A stretch of 64,000 nucleotides of DNA from assembly GCA_003712055.1 (NCBI GenBank), contig RHLJ01000001.1, forward strand, positions 868,001-932,000, read 5' to 3'. The DNA comes from Balneola sp. Its GTDB lineage: Bacteria > Bacteroidota > Rhodothermia > Balneolales > Balneolaceae. Positions 487 through 32,909 of the stretch are shown here, piece by piece. Each line of letters opens with the position of its first letter. Positions within the stretch are counted from its first letter, which is position 1. The position numbers and the translations under genes were made by a program. The notes beneath the pieces were generated by a model that saw nothing but the letters and a program-made list of their open reading frames with translations, had not been told where the DNA came from and did no database searches.

Positions 487-585
487 TGTTATCAACAATC
501 ATTTCCTTGGTCATTATTAGCGTCATTGGTAAATCATACCGACCAGGGAAAGCTCTATGTTGACAGGACAACGATTTTAAACTAA
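487..585 (+). CDS. ilvL: ilv operon leader peptide (IlvL-like)
   Basis: A 32-codon ORF, ATG 487 to TAA 583-585. Eight of the ten residues at positions 5-14 are branched-chain (I5 I6 L8 V9 I10 I11 V13 I14). The stretch [10 protein letters not shown] closely resembles the ISLVVISVVV segment that I recall from enterobacterial IlvL. It lies 41 bases upstream of ilvD and its stop codon overlaps the 5' arm of a strong intrinsic terminator. Such peptides act in cis: ribosome stalling at Ile/Val/Leu codons reports starvation for the operon's end products. The peptide itself probably has no other role. No strong Shine-Dalgarno is visible, which is normal for this lineage. Confidence 0.8.
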
Positions 586-607
586 GCCTTCCCCAACCGG
601 AAGGCTT
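504..607 (+). promoter_or_regulatory. ilv transcription attenuator (alternative hairpins 1:2, 2:3, 3:4)
   Basis: Four mutually pairing segments can be read. Segment 1 is TTCCTTGGTC (504-513), inside the Ile/Val codons of the leader. It pairs with segment 2 GACCAGGGAA (541-550) over 10 positions with one G-U. Segment 2, extended as GGGAAAGCT (546-554), pairs 8 of 9 with segment 3 AGCCTTCCC (585-593). Segment 3 is the 5' arm of the terminator, which pairs with segment 4 (599-607). A ribosome stalled on segment 1 would free 2 to pair with 3 and block termination. The pairings are seen in the sequence; the mechanism is inferred from known ilv/trp/his attenuators. Oddity: the leader stop lies at 583-585, later than in classical examples. 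Confidence 0.72.
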
Positions 608-614
608 TTTTTTT
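584..614 (+). terminator. Intrinsic terminator of the ilv attenuator
   Basis: Perfect 9-bp stem AAGCCTTCC / GGAAGGCTT (584-592 with 599-607), six-base loop CCAACC, then an unbroken T run to 614. It sits 12 bases before the ilvD start, so in the terminated state the whole operon is switched off. Confidence 0.85.
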
Positions 615-2330: not shown

Positions 2331-4067
2331 ATGGGAACGGTAGACACACTCAATCAAACAACGACACAAACAACCTCAACTGAACGAGTTACTGGCGCAG
2401 ATGCCGTGGTCCGGATTCTACTTGAAGAAGGTGTGGATATGCTCTTTGGATATCCTGGCGGAGCCATTATGCCGGTATATGATTCTCTTTATGATTACCG
2501 TGAGCAAATCCATCATGTTCTTGCTCGTCATGAACAGGGAGCAAGTCATGCTGCACAAGGCTATGCACGAGCTTCAGGAAAAGTGGGCGTTTGCCTGGCA
2601 ACTTCTGGTCCGGGAGCAACGAACCTAATTACAGGATTAGCCGATGCACAAATCGACTCCACTCCTCTTGTTTGTATAACAGGTCAAGTGCCATCTGGTT
2701 TATTAGGTAGTGATGCCTTCCAGGAAACGGATGTGATTGGGATTTCGATGCCAGTAACTAAATGGAATTACCAGGTTACACGCGCAGAGGAGATCCCCGA
2801 AGCACTTGCCAAAGCTTTTTACCTTGCAAGATCAGGACGACCAGGCCCTGTGTTAGTAGACATCACCAAAGACGCCCAGTTTGAGGAGTTTGATTTCGAG
2901 TACAAGAAATGTACTTCCATTCGTAGTTATGTTGAAAAACCCGCCCTTGATTTGGCAAAAGTAGAGGAAGCCGCCGAACTCATAAATAATGCAAAGCGCC
3001 CCTACGTACTATTTGGCCAGGGAGTAATACTGGCACATGCTGAAAAAGAATTCAAGGCTTTCATTGAGAAAACGGGAATCCCCTCTGCATGGACCATTAT
3101 GGGGCTTTCTGCACTTGAAACAGATCATCCATTGAATGTGGGAATGCTGGGCATGCATGGTAATTATGGGCCAAACCTGCTTACTAACGAATGTGATATA
3201 CTCATAGCTATAGGCATGAGATTTGACGACCGGGTAACAGGTAACCTTTCCAAGTATGCAAAACAGGCAAAGGTCATCCACATGGAAATTGACCCCGCTG
3301 AAATTGATAAGAATGTGAAAACAGATGTCGCGGTTCTTGGCGATGCCAAGGAATCCTTGCAAGAACTTATCAAACGAGTAAAACCGAACAGCCATGAAGA
3401 GTGGTTGCAGCGATTCAGAGATTGCGATAAGCAAGAACATGAAAAGGTAATTCAAGACGAGCTATACCCTACTTCCGATATACTGAGTATGGGGGAAGTA
3501 ATTCGATTAATTAATGAGAATACCGGAGGTGATCATATCCTGGTTACCGACGTGGGGCAGCACCAAATGGTGGCTTGCCGTTATTCTAAATTCACTCAAT
3601 CGAAGAGCAACATAACCTCGGGTGGACTCGGAACGATGGGTTTCGGGCTGCCTGCTGGTTTGGGTGCTGCACTTGGAGCGCCGGACCGAACAGTAATTGC
3701 TGTGGTTGGCGATGGTGGGTTCCAAATGACGCTTCAGGAATTGGCTACCATCTATCAGACCAAGGCTAAGGTGAAAGTATTATTACTCAATAATGAGTTT
3801 TTAGGAATGGTAAGGCAGTGGCAACAGCTCTTTTTCGATAAGCGATACTCTGCCACAGAAATGATTAACCCCGATTTCCAGCAGATGGTGAAAGGCTTTT
3901 ATATCCCTACCAATAAGGTTACTAAACGAGAAGAATTAGAAGCCGCAGTAAAAGAATTCATTGAATTTGATGGCGCTTACTTCCTGGAAGTAATGGTTGG
4001 AAAGGAAAATAATGTATTCCCTATGGTTCCCAGCGGATCGGGAGTAGCAGAGATCAGACTGGAGTGA
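2331..4067 (+). CDS. ilvB: Acetolactate synthase large (catalytic) subunit
   Basis: Thiamine-diphosphate enzyme that condenses pyruvate with pyruvate or 2-ketobutyrate, the committed step of branched-chain synthesis. It has 578 residues in the three-domain order of the family. The N-terminal domain has GYPGG and the catalytic Glu in ARHEQGASHAA (about residue 67). The C-terminal ThDP domain has GDGGFQMTLQELAT (from about residue 460) followed by LLNNEFLGMVRQWQ. It works with the small subunit encoded 4 bases downstream. The first 20 residues are Thr/Gln-rich and poorly conserved in the family, but ATG 2331 is the only sensible start. Confidence 0.96.
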   Translation: MGTVDTLNQTTTQTTSTERVTGADAVVRILLEEGVDMLFGYPGGAIMPVYDSLYDYREQIHHVLARHEQGASHAAQGYARASGKVGVCLATSGPGATNLITGLADAQIDSTPLVCITGQVPSGLLGSDAFQETDVIGISMPVTKWNYQVTRAEEIPEALAKAFYLARSGRPGPVLVDITKDAQFEEFDFEYKKCTSIRSYVEKPALDLAKVEEAAELINNAKRPYVLFGQGVILAHAEKEFKAFIEKTGIPSAWTIMGLSALETDHPLNVGMLGMHGNYGPNLLTNECDILIAIGMRFDDRVTGNLSKYAKQAKVIHMEIDPAEIDKNVKTDVAVLGDAKESLQELIKRVKPNSHEEWLQRFRDCDKQEHEKVIQDELYPTSDILSMGEVIRLINENTGGDHILVTDVGQHQMVACRYSKFTQSKSNITSGGLGTMGFGLPAGLGAALGAPDRTVIAVVGDGGFQMTLQELATIYQTKAKVKVLLLNNEFLGMVRQWQQLFFDKRYSATEMINPDFQQMVKGFYIPTNKVTKREELEAAVKEFIEFDGAYFLEVMVGKENNVFPMVPSGSGVAEIRLE

Positions 4068-4071
4068 TACT

Positions 4072-4617
4072 ATGGTACCTTTAGAACAAGAATTTACGAT
4101 TACGGCATATACTGAAAATCATGTCGGACTTTTGCATCGGCTCACGATTATTTTCACCAAGCGGAAGATCAATATTGAAAGTCTCACTACCTCTGAGAGT
4201 GAGATGGAAGGCGTACACCGTTTCACAATTGCAGTAACTGAAACAGAAGAAGTGATCCAGAAAGTGGTGAAACAAATCGAAAAACAGGTTGAGGTATTAA
4301 AAGCGGGCTATTATAAGCGCGAAGAAGTGGTTCAACAGGAACTAGCGTTGTACAAAATTCCGACTGAATCCTTAACAAACAGCCTGGAAGTAGAACTCAT
4401 CGTCAGAGAGCATAATGCACGTTTCCTGACCATTGAAAAAGATTTCGTGGTGATCGAAAAAGCAGGTTATCGTAGGGAAACCGTTGCTTTATTTGAAGAT
4501 TTACAGCCCTATGGGATCAATGAATTTGTACGTTCAGGCCGCATAGCTGTAGCCCGGCAAGAATATGGCCTCGGTAAACAGGTCAAAGAATTATTGGGGG
4601 AAGAAGTTGATGGATAA
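4072..4617 (+). CDS. ilvN: Acetolactate synthase small (regulatory) subunit
   Basis: Regulatory ACT-domain subunit (181 residues) that confers feedback inhibition by valine on the large subunit. The N-terminal ACT domain begins at ITAYTENHVGLLHRLTIIFTKRKINIESL. The C-terminal domain has the LEVELIVREHNARFLTIEKDF region and ends VRSGRIAVARQ..., typical of the longer small-subunit form. It starts 4 bases after the ilvB stop and is probably translationally coupled. The official symbol varies (ilvN/ilvH). Confidence 0.93.
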   Translation: MVPLEQEFTITAYTENHVGLLHRLTIIFTKRKINIESLTTSESEMEGVHRFTIAVTETEEVIQKVVKQIEKQVEVLKAGYYKREEVVQQELALYKIPTESLTNSLEVELIVREHNARFLTIEKDFVVIEKAGYRRETVALFEDLQPYGINEFVRSGRIAVARQEYGLGKQVKELLGEEVDG

Positions 4618-4798: not shown

Positions 4799-5845
4799 AT
4801 GGCACTTTTAAATTTTGGCGGAGTCGAAGAAGAAGTAGTAACACGTGAGGAATTCCCTCTTGAGAAAGCCAGGGAGACCCTTAAAGACGAAACGATCGCC
4901 ATTTTAGGATATGGAGTACAAGGCCCCGGACAAGCCTTAAATCTGAAAGACAATGGCTTTAATGTAATTGTCGGCCAACGAAAGAACTCCAAAACCTGGG
5001 ATAAAGCGGTAGCCGATGGCTGGGTTCCTGGCGAAACACTTTTTGAACTTGAAGAAGCTTGCCAACGAGGAACCATCCTCCAGTTCCTTCTTTCCGATGC
5101 GGGACAAATCTCCCTCTGGCCTACCGTAAAGGAGAACCTAACTCCCGGAAAAGCACTCTACTTCTCCCATGGATTTGGAATCACCTATAAAGAACGAACT
5201 GGTATTGTCCCCCCGGATGATGTGGATGTGATTCTTGTTGCTCCAAAAGGCTCGGGGACTTCCCTTCGCCGAATGTTCTTAGAAGGCCGCGGATTAAACT
5301 CTAGCTATGCCATTTTCCAGGATGCCACAGGAAATGCAAAAAATCGTGTGGTTGCATTGGGGATTGGTGTAGGATCAGGCTACCTCTTCCCTACCACCTT
5401 CAAAAAAGAAGTATACAGCGATTTAACAGGCGAGCGCGGAACCTTAATGGGCGCCATCCAGGGAATTTTTGCTGCGCAGTATGAAGTACTTCGTGCAAAC
5501 GGGCATACCCCTTCCGAAGCCTTTAACGAAACGGTGGAAGAACTTACCCAATCTCTCATGCCTTTAGTAGCCGAAAACGGCATGGACTGGATGTATGCCA
5601 ACTGTTCTACCACTGCTCAACGTGGCGCACTGGACTGGTGGAAACCATTCCGCGATGCGACAAAGCCAGTTTTTGAAGAGCTCTATAAAGAAGTAGCAGC
5701 AGGTAATGAAGCTCAGAAGTCAATCGATTCTAATTCCAAAGATGATTACCGGGAAGGATTAGAACAAGAGCTCCAGGAACTCCGCGAAAGCGAAATGTGG
5801 CAGGCTGGTGCTACCGTAAGGACCTTGCGGCCGGAGAATAATTAA
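4799..5845 (+). CDS. ilvC: Ketol-acid reductoisomerase (class I)
   Basis: NADPH- and Mg-dependent isomerisation/reduction of acetolactate or acetohydroxybutyrate, the second pathway step. It has 348 residues. The N-terminal Rossmann motif ILGYGVQGPGQALNLKDNG is followed by a cofactor-specificity loop VGQRKNSKTWDKA. The knotted C-terminal helical domain includes the metal ligands in DLTGERGTLMGAIQGIF and the EELTQSLMPL segment. The GYGVQGPGQA wording and the divergent 'ILQFLLSDAGQ' loop match the variant found in fungi and Bacteroidota rather than the proteobacterial long form. It is the last gene of the ilv operon and is followed by dispersed repeats. Confidence 0.95.
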   Translation: MALLNFGGVEEEVVTREEFPLEKARETLKDETIAILGYGVQGPGQALNLKDNGFNVIVGQRKNSKTWDKAVADGWVPGETLFELEEACQRGTILQFLLSDAGQISLWPTVKENLTPGKALYFSHGFGITYKERTGIVPPDDVDVILVAPKGSGTSLRRMFLEGRGLNSSYAIFQDATGNAKNRVVALGIGVGSGYLFPTTFKKEVYSDLTGERGTLMGAIQGIFAAQYEVLRANGHTPSEAFNETVEELTQSLMPLVAENGMDWMYANCSTTAQRGALDWWKPFRDATKPVFEELYKEVAAGNEAQKSIDSNSKDDYREGLEQELQELRESEMWQAGATVRTLRPENN

Positions 5846-31868: not shown

Positions 31869-31961
31869 ATGCCTATATTTGCAGCAGTGAAAAATTTAAG
31901 AGTTCATACAGCCCATCACACTCATCATGGTAGCCATCATGGTCACCACATTGTGCACTAA
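31869..31961 (+). CDS. hisL: his operon leader peptide
   Basis: A 30-codon ORF, ATG 31869 (in-frame GTG 31887) to TAA 31959-31961, 66 bases upstream of hisG. From residue 13 on it has ten His, including VHTAHHTHHGSHHGHHIVH. Such a His run directly before hisG is the hallmark of a his attenuator leader: stalling at His codons during starvation prevents termination. It begins 4 bases after the hybrid-kinase stop, so the his promoter must lie within that gene or read-through occurs. Confidence 0.82.
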   Translation: MPIFAAVKNLRVHTAHHTHHGSHHGHHIVH

Positions 31962-31980
31962 TATTCCGCACACCCTTTTT
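31952..31980 (+). terminator. Possible weak attenuator hairpin before hisG
   Basis: TGTGC (31952-31956) can pair with GCACA (31968-31972), followed by CCCTTTTT. The 5-bp stem overlaps the last leader codons. It is much weaker than the ilv terminator, so the hairpin call is uncertain, though its position is right. Confidence 0.35.
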
Positions 31981-32027
31981 CACTCAACATACCACCCTCT
32001 TTTTAATCACTTTTTAATTACAATTTT

Positions 32028-32909
32028 ATGAACCGGACGAAAGATTCCACTACTTCTTTGCGCATTGCAATACAAAAAAGCGGCCGTTTAACAGATAAAA
32101 CTATTGAACTGTTACATGGTATCGGGGTAGAGTTTGATAATTATAAACGCAACCTGATGGTTAAAACCAGGAATTTTGATGTAGAACTTCTTCTTCTTCG
32201 AGATGATGACATTCCGGAATACGTTCAGGATGGGATTTGCGATCTTGGTTTTGTAGGAGCAAATGAAGTATTCGAAAAAAATGCAGATGTTACCGTTCTA
32301 AGGGGACTTAATTATGGGAATTGTCGTCTTTCAATTGCAGCTCCTAAAGAGTCCGAACTGAGTACCCCTTCTGACTTTGAAGGAAAAACTATTGCCACAA
32401 GCTATCCTTTCTTAACAAAAAAGTTTTTTGAAGAGCATTCGACAAATGTTTCTGTAGTAGAAATCTCAGGAGCTGTTGAAATTACCCCTCAGTTAGAAGT
32501 AGCTGATGCGATCTCGGATCTGGTTTCTACCGGTGGTACTCTTATTGCTAATGGTTTAGAAGAACTATTTACCATTCTTGAATCGGAAACGAAATTGGTC
32601 CGCACCAATAAAGAGTTATCCCCTGGTAAGAAACAGCTAATTGATAAGTTTTTAGTTCGAATTGATGGATATCAGCAGGCTAAAAAAAGCCGGTATATTA
32701 TGATGAATGCTCCCCAGAATAAAGTTGATACTATAAAATCTATCATACCTTCTATGAAAAGTCCTACCATCGTTCCTTTGGCTGAATCAGGAATGGTTGC
32801 TATTCACACGGTAATCCCGATTAATAAATTCTGGGAAGTGATGGAAGAATTAAAAGAAGTTGGTGCATCCGATATTGTAATGCTCCCTATCGAAAGTATG
32901 ATCCTGTAA
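32028..32909 (+). CDS. hisG: ATP phosphoribosyltransferase, long form
   Basis: First enzyme of histidine synthesis, joining ATP and PRPP. 293 residues, so it includes the C-terminal ACT-like regulatory domain (from about 215: KSRYIMMNAPQNKVDTIKSII) and would not need HisZ. The catalytic part has LRIAIQKSGRLTDKTIELL and DAISDLVSTGGTLIANGLEE, the PRPP-binding signature. It is first in the his cluster and follows the His-rich leader. Confidence 0.96.
   Translation: MNRTKDSTTSLRIAIQKSGRLTDKTIELLHGIGVEFDNYKRNLMVKTRNFDVELLLLRDDDIPEYVQDGICDLGFVGANEVFEKNADVTVLRGLNYGNCRLSIAAPKESELSTPSDFEGKTIATSYPFLTKKFFEEHSTNVSVVEISGAVEITPQLEVADAISDLVSTGGTLIANGLEELFTILESETKLVRTNKELSPGKKQLIDKFLVRIDGYQQAKKSRYIMMNAPQNKVDTIKSIIPSMKSPTIVPLAESGMVAIHTVIPINKFWEVMEELKEVGASDIVMLPIESMIL

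Follow-up and report, generated by a model that had tools for sequence, protein, structure and literature searches.

The ilv operon and its leader

The window is a 64,000-nucleotide stretch of the Balneola sp. genome. Close to its 5' end lies an operon with the gene order ilvD-ilvB-ilvN-ilvC, which follows a short open reading frame rich in branched-chain amino acid codons. The features of this region are as follows.

437-467, + strand: probable promoter of the Bacteroidota type (TTG at 437-439, a 20 nt spacer and TTTCTTTG at 460-467)
486-563, + strand: leader peptide ORF, 25 aa (ATG at 486, TGA at 561-563), from translation and conservation
627-2306, + strand: ilvD, dihydroxy-acid dehydratase, first gene of the operon (TIGR00110, above cut-off)
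2331-4067, + strand: ilvB, acetolactate synthase large subunit (TIGR00118, above cut-off)
4072-4617, + strand: ilvN/ilvH, acetolactate synthase small subunit (NF008864 at 108 bits, below the cut-off of 119; assigned with its operon position)
4799-5845, + strand: ilvC, ketol-acid reductoisomerase (TIGR00465, above cut-off)

The promoter motif at the leader resembles a known Bacteroidota promoter type, and a sigma-70 promoter scan gave no match at the leader. In the form TTG-N20-T[AT]NNTTTG the motif is found at the leader of 16 of the 20 core relatives, with a spacer of 20 nt in each of those 16, and it falls at this position in 0.2% of shuffles. Transcription would be expected to start a few nucleotides 3' of position 467. 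The translated leader peptide contains isoleucine, leucine or valine at 10 of its 25 residues, and both the frame and an I/L/V-rich peptide are kept in the 20 core relatives. No Shine-Dalgarno sequence is evident 5' of the leader ATG at 486.

Four pairing segments between the leader and ilvD

Within and beyond the leader ORF, the RNA can be divided into four segments and a T run, which were assigned from folding and from pair counts in 20 relatives, the T run from the sequence.

502-512, + strand: segment 1, within the control codons
541-554, + strand: segment 2, of which 541-551 pairs with segment 1 and 546-554 with segment 3
584-593, + strand: segment 3, of which 584-592 is the 5' arm of the terminator and 585-593 the 3' arm of the antiterminator
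599-607, + strand: segment 4, the 3' arm of the terminator
606-614, + strand: run of nine T, the expected termination zone

An earlier note on this DNA had read a complete four-segment attenuator directly from the sequence, and folding, conservation and codon content support that reading. The terminator it described, a perfect 9 bp stem at 584-592/599-607 followed by the T run, was recovered unchanged, as were eight of nine pairs in the 2:3 antiterminator (546-554/585-593) and the location of segment 1 among the control codons (ATT TCC TTG GTC, 501-512). The 1:2 pairing of ten out of ten positions with one G-U is also real, but its 5' arm had been placed at 504-513 and the coordinates are 503-512/541-550. 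The full 1:2 hairpin extends over 502-512/541-551, with 11 bp and a stability of -14.4 kcal/mol. Taken alone, the 2:3 stem is weak (-7.7 kcal/mol) and the 3:4 stem has an energy of -14.1 kcal/mol. The RNA folded without constraint contains both the 1:2 and the 3:4 stem; its energy is -38.2 kcal/mol (z = -4.6), a stability that none of 200 shuffles equalled.

Conservation in relatives

The leader and terminator were found together in all 14 searched genomes with an IlvD at least 74% identical, and also in one genome of another family, where IlvD is 64% identical. At the other loci with IlvD of 60-64% identity (L016-L030), the scan used found no leader. A covariance model gave 20 strong matches in 92 genomes of the family, all of them ahead of ilvD. 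The I/L/V codons and the segment geometry are kept in 20 relatives while the spacer varies. One genus (g5) gave weaker model matches; its leaders start with TTG and have a different 1:2 stem, for example CATCGTT/AACGATG, that follows the same logic.

In the pair counts the 3:4 terminator is paired in 98% of cells and the 2:3 antiterminator in 83%. The 1:2 hairpin is paired in 86%, with two pairs showing changes on both sides, and its conservation is not independent of coding, since both of its arms are also coding sequence for the peptide. Sliding the pairing partners lowers the paired fraction from 92% to 33-67%. Across 1:2 and 3:4, three pairs and seven cells carry changes on both sides, a count as high in three of 500 shuffles, and the covariation score is 0.154 against 0.137 in shuffles (6/500). 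Covariation in these two stems is modest. The compensatory changes that the earlier note had expected of a true attenuator are present in 1:2 and 3:4, though few, but there are none in 2:3 among the relatives compared.

One core relative (L127, G076:C10) has its attenuator about 176 nt from ilvD, compared with 12-42 nt in the others. The additional DNA between attenuator and gene has inverted repeats and resembles an insertion.

Ribosome position and RNA folding

We computed folds of the transcript, taken as far as the terminator loop, with a ribosome footprint kept unpaired at each codon in turn. When codons 498-522 occupy the A-site, the 2:3 pairing has a probability of 0.96-0.97. Ile525 is the boundary codon (2:3 probability 0.03) and Ser534 is intermediate (0.69), and from Tyr537 through to the stop, as well as with no ribosome, the probability is 0.00. 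The computed stall on the control codons frees segment 2, whereas a ribosome at the stop masks it. The Leu codon CTA at 555-557 sits where a stalled ribosome would favour termination. The upstream pairing of segment 3 is 0.84 with the ribosome on Ile, Leu and Val codons and below 0.1 near the stop or without a ribosome.

For a switch score we took the upstream pairing of segment 3 on four control codons and subtracted whichever was higher, the value at the end of the leader or that without a ribosome. The score of 0.754 was reached by none of 500 dinucleotide shuffles (maximum 0.596) and by none of 500 synonymous recodings (maximum 0.736). The same folding step is seen in all or nearly all of 26 relatives, and E. 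coli thrL gives the expected step in the same test. As the known attenuator E. coli ilvL shows no clean step, the folding is a test of plausibility and not proof, and smaller ribosome footprints weaken the computed switch. Once the transcript is complete, 3:4 wins over 2:3 wherever the ribosome is placed; the switch must therefore be kinetic, with 2:3 holding until the polymerase passes.

A probable ribosome-mediated attenuator and the alternatives

An attenuator at this position is supported by sequence anatomy, conservation and computed folding. We consider it very probable that ilvDBNC is controlled by ribosome-mediated transcription attenuation at this leader; that ribosomes stall, transcription terminates and the operon is regulated in this way in the cell is what we infer from these observations. 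A ribosome would translate the 25-aa leader peptide behind the RNA polymerase. A shortage of Ile-, Val- or Leu-tRNA would stall it at the codons of 498-524, where it would cover segment 1, so that segment 2 could capture segment 3 as the antiterminator and the polymerase would read through into ilvD. With plentiful tRNAs the ribosome would reach the stop at 561-563 and cover segment 2, 3:4 would form and transcription would end near 606-614. Were the leader not translated, 1:2 would form, and the terminator would be expected to form too.

The earlier note had placed the leader stop at 583-585, overlapping segment 3, and had proposed that a ribosome there would mask the terminator, which would call for a timing unlike that of the trp model or for fast release. 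A TAA does occur at 583-585. However, it lies out of frame, as 97 nt separate position 583 from the ATG at 486, whose own frame meets TGA at 561-563. In relatives, the frame that ends at 583-585 has no conserved peptide product and is broken in many of them, while in 20 relatives the true stop lies 20-31 nt 5' of the segment-3 core. Because of this distance a terminating ribosome covers segment 2 and not segment 3. Reading frame and conservation rule out a leader stop at 583-585, and we give almost no credence to the masking and unusual timing built on it, which rest on the out-of-frame TAA. The true stop leaves 3:4 free, which is ordinary trp-model logic without any unusual timing.

Alternatively, the terminator hairpin could act constitutively or mark a site of mRNA processing, with the ORF 5' of it there by chance and a DNA-binding regulator controlling the operon. 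It is indeed the best-conserved part of the region and would form on its own. This reading is nonetheless improbable given that the branched-chain codons and geometry persist in 20 relatives around a variable spacer, that genus g5 preserves the logic with another 1:2 stem, and that the switch score lies above all controls. A ligand-binding riboswitch or a T-box acting through the same terminator would also present RNA folds that exclude one another in front of a biosynthetic operon, but here the conserved upstream part is an ORF and not a binding fold. None of the Rfam 15 families, which include the Thr, Leu, Phe, His and Trp leaders, reached its gathering threshold within the window. The best sub-threshold match in 450-640 was Phe_leader, at 25.2 of 55 bits, with Thr_leader at 17 of 55, and the sub-threshold matches there also include unrelated sRNA families. 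With no Rfam match at gathering score we rejected a riboswitch or T-box, which we regard as very unlikely.

Relation to known systems

The leader is very probably an ordinary ribosome-mediated ilv attenuator, with a textbook mechanism in a lineage for which it is hardly documented. The E. coli ilvL-ilvXGMEDA leader likewise combines an I/L/V-rich, multivalent Ile/Val/Leu peptide with a terminator before a branched-chain operon, but its segment sequences are different, its first gene is ilvX/ilvG and not ilvD, and its peptide is longer at 32 aa. The leader at 501-527 of the window and the E. coli ilvL peptide have ISLV(I/V)ISV in common, a likeness as high in one of 5000 shuffles in a comparison chosen post hoc; it may reflect either convergence or descent. 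E. coli thrL-thrABC is alike in its step in the ribosome-position folding and unlike in having Thr/Ile codons and a different operon. The 2010 comparative survey of Lopatovskaya et al. may already include some of the leaders described here.

In Corynebacterium, a branched-chain-rich uORF with a terminator and antiterminator also precedes an ilv operon, ilvBNC (the ilvB-II motif, PMC10272879), but there it stands before ilvB, in Actinobacteria, and the uORF is usually 15-17 aa. A 2010 survey, for which such systems had until then been confined to Proteobacteria and Actinobacteria, extended them to Firmicutes (PMC2965389). A 2021 study of Flavobacterium psychrophilum obtained transcriptome-based clues to leader-peptide attenuation of amino acid operons (PMC9723704); this species belongs to the same broad group but not to Balneolales, and the main text presents neither ilv nor structures. 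Our literature search on ilv attenuators in Bacteroidota found only general mentions. The locus may serve to report, in its native setting, on Ile/Val/Leu-tRNA charging and transcription-translation coupling, in a lineage for which the papers searched only hint at leader-peptide control.

Similar leaders in more distant genomes

In a crude scan of 80 more distant loci, mostly from Bacteroidota, about two dozen have an I/L/V-rich ORF and then a terminator before ilvD. Of 16 distant leaders that were mapped, 14 gave the expected folding step, and in most of them the switch is lost close to where the I/L/V stretch ends; L093 and L054 deviate. Two leader-terminator units stand in series before ilvD in L051 (Aquimarina), L066 (Lutibacter) and L060 (an Ignavibacteriae MAG). 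Tandem attenuators are already known from Salmonella mgtCBR (PMC3641672). We think it somewhat more probable than otherwise that the element of the window is one of a widespread, unannotated class of leader-peptide attenuators that lack an evident Shine-Dalgarno sequence and stand before ilvD in Balneolales and other Bacteroidota, some of them in tandem. If so, the leading ribosome would stay near RNA polymerase in this group, and the leaders would provide a native switch for testing coupling.

The two units of L051 look like a duplication. In the Flavobacteriaceae-type loci L033, L046-L049, L051, L052, L066, L068, L071, L075 and L106, the distance from the last terminator to ilvD is about 150-310 nt.

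Other leaders in the same genome

A search in front of the two LeuA-type genes turned up no leader. Upstream of hisG (32028-32909 of the window) lies a His-rich leader ORF at 31869-32027 on the + strand, ending in HTAHHTHHGSHHGHHIVH and a stop. It is conserved in most of the 22 relatives examined, often with a GTG start right after a promoter-like box, TATATTTG. No intrinsic terminator was found 3' of the hisG leader, where there is instead a G-poor, C/T-rich stretch; control here is possibly by Rho-dependent or translational attenuation, and the transcript may even be leaderless. Elsewhere in the genome (L143, G000:C1 near 359 kb, minus strand), a leader peptide, MKIRNANISTWWWPNA, with three Trp codons is followed by a CCCAC...GTGGG terminator with nine T before a chorismate-binding, trpE-type gene, and looks like a trp attenuator.
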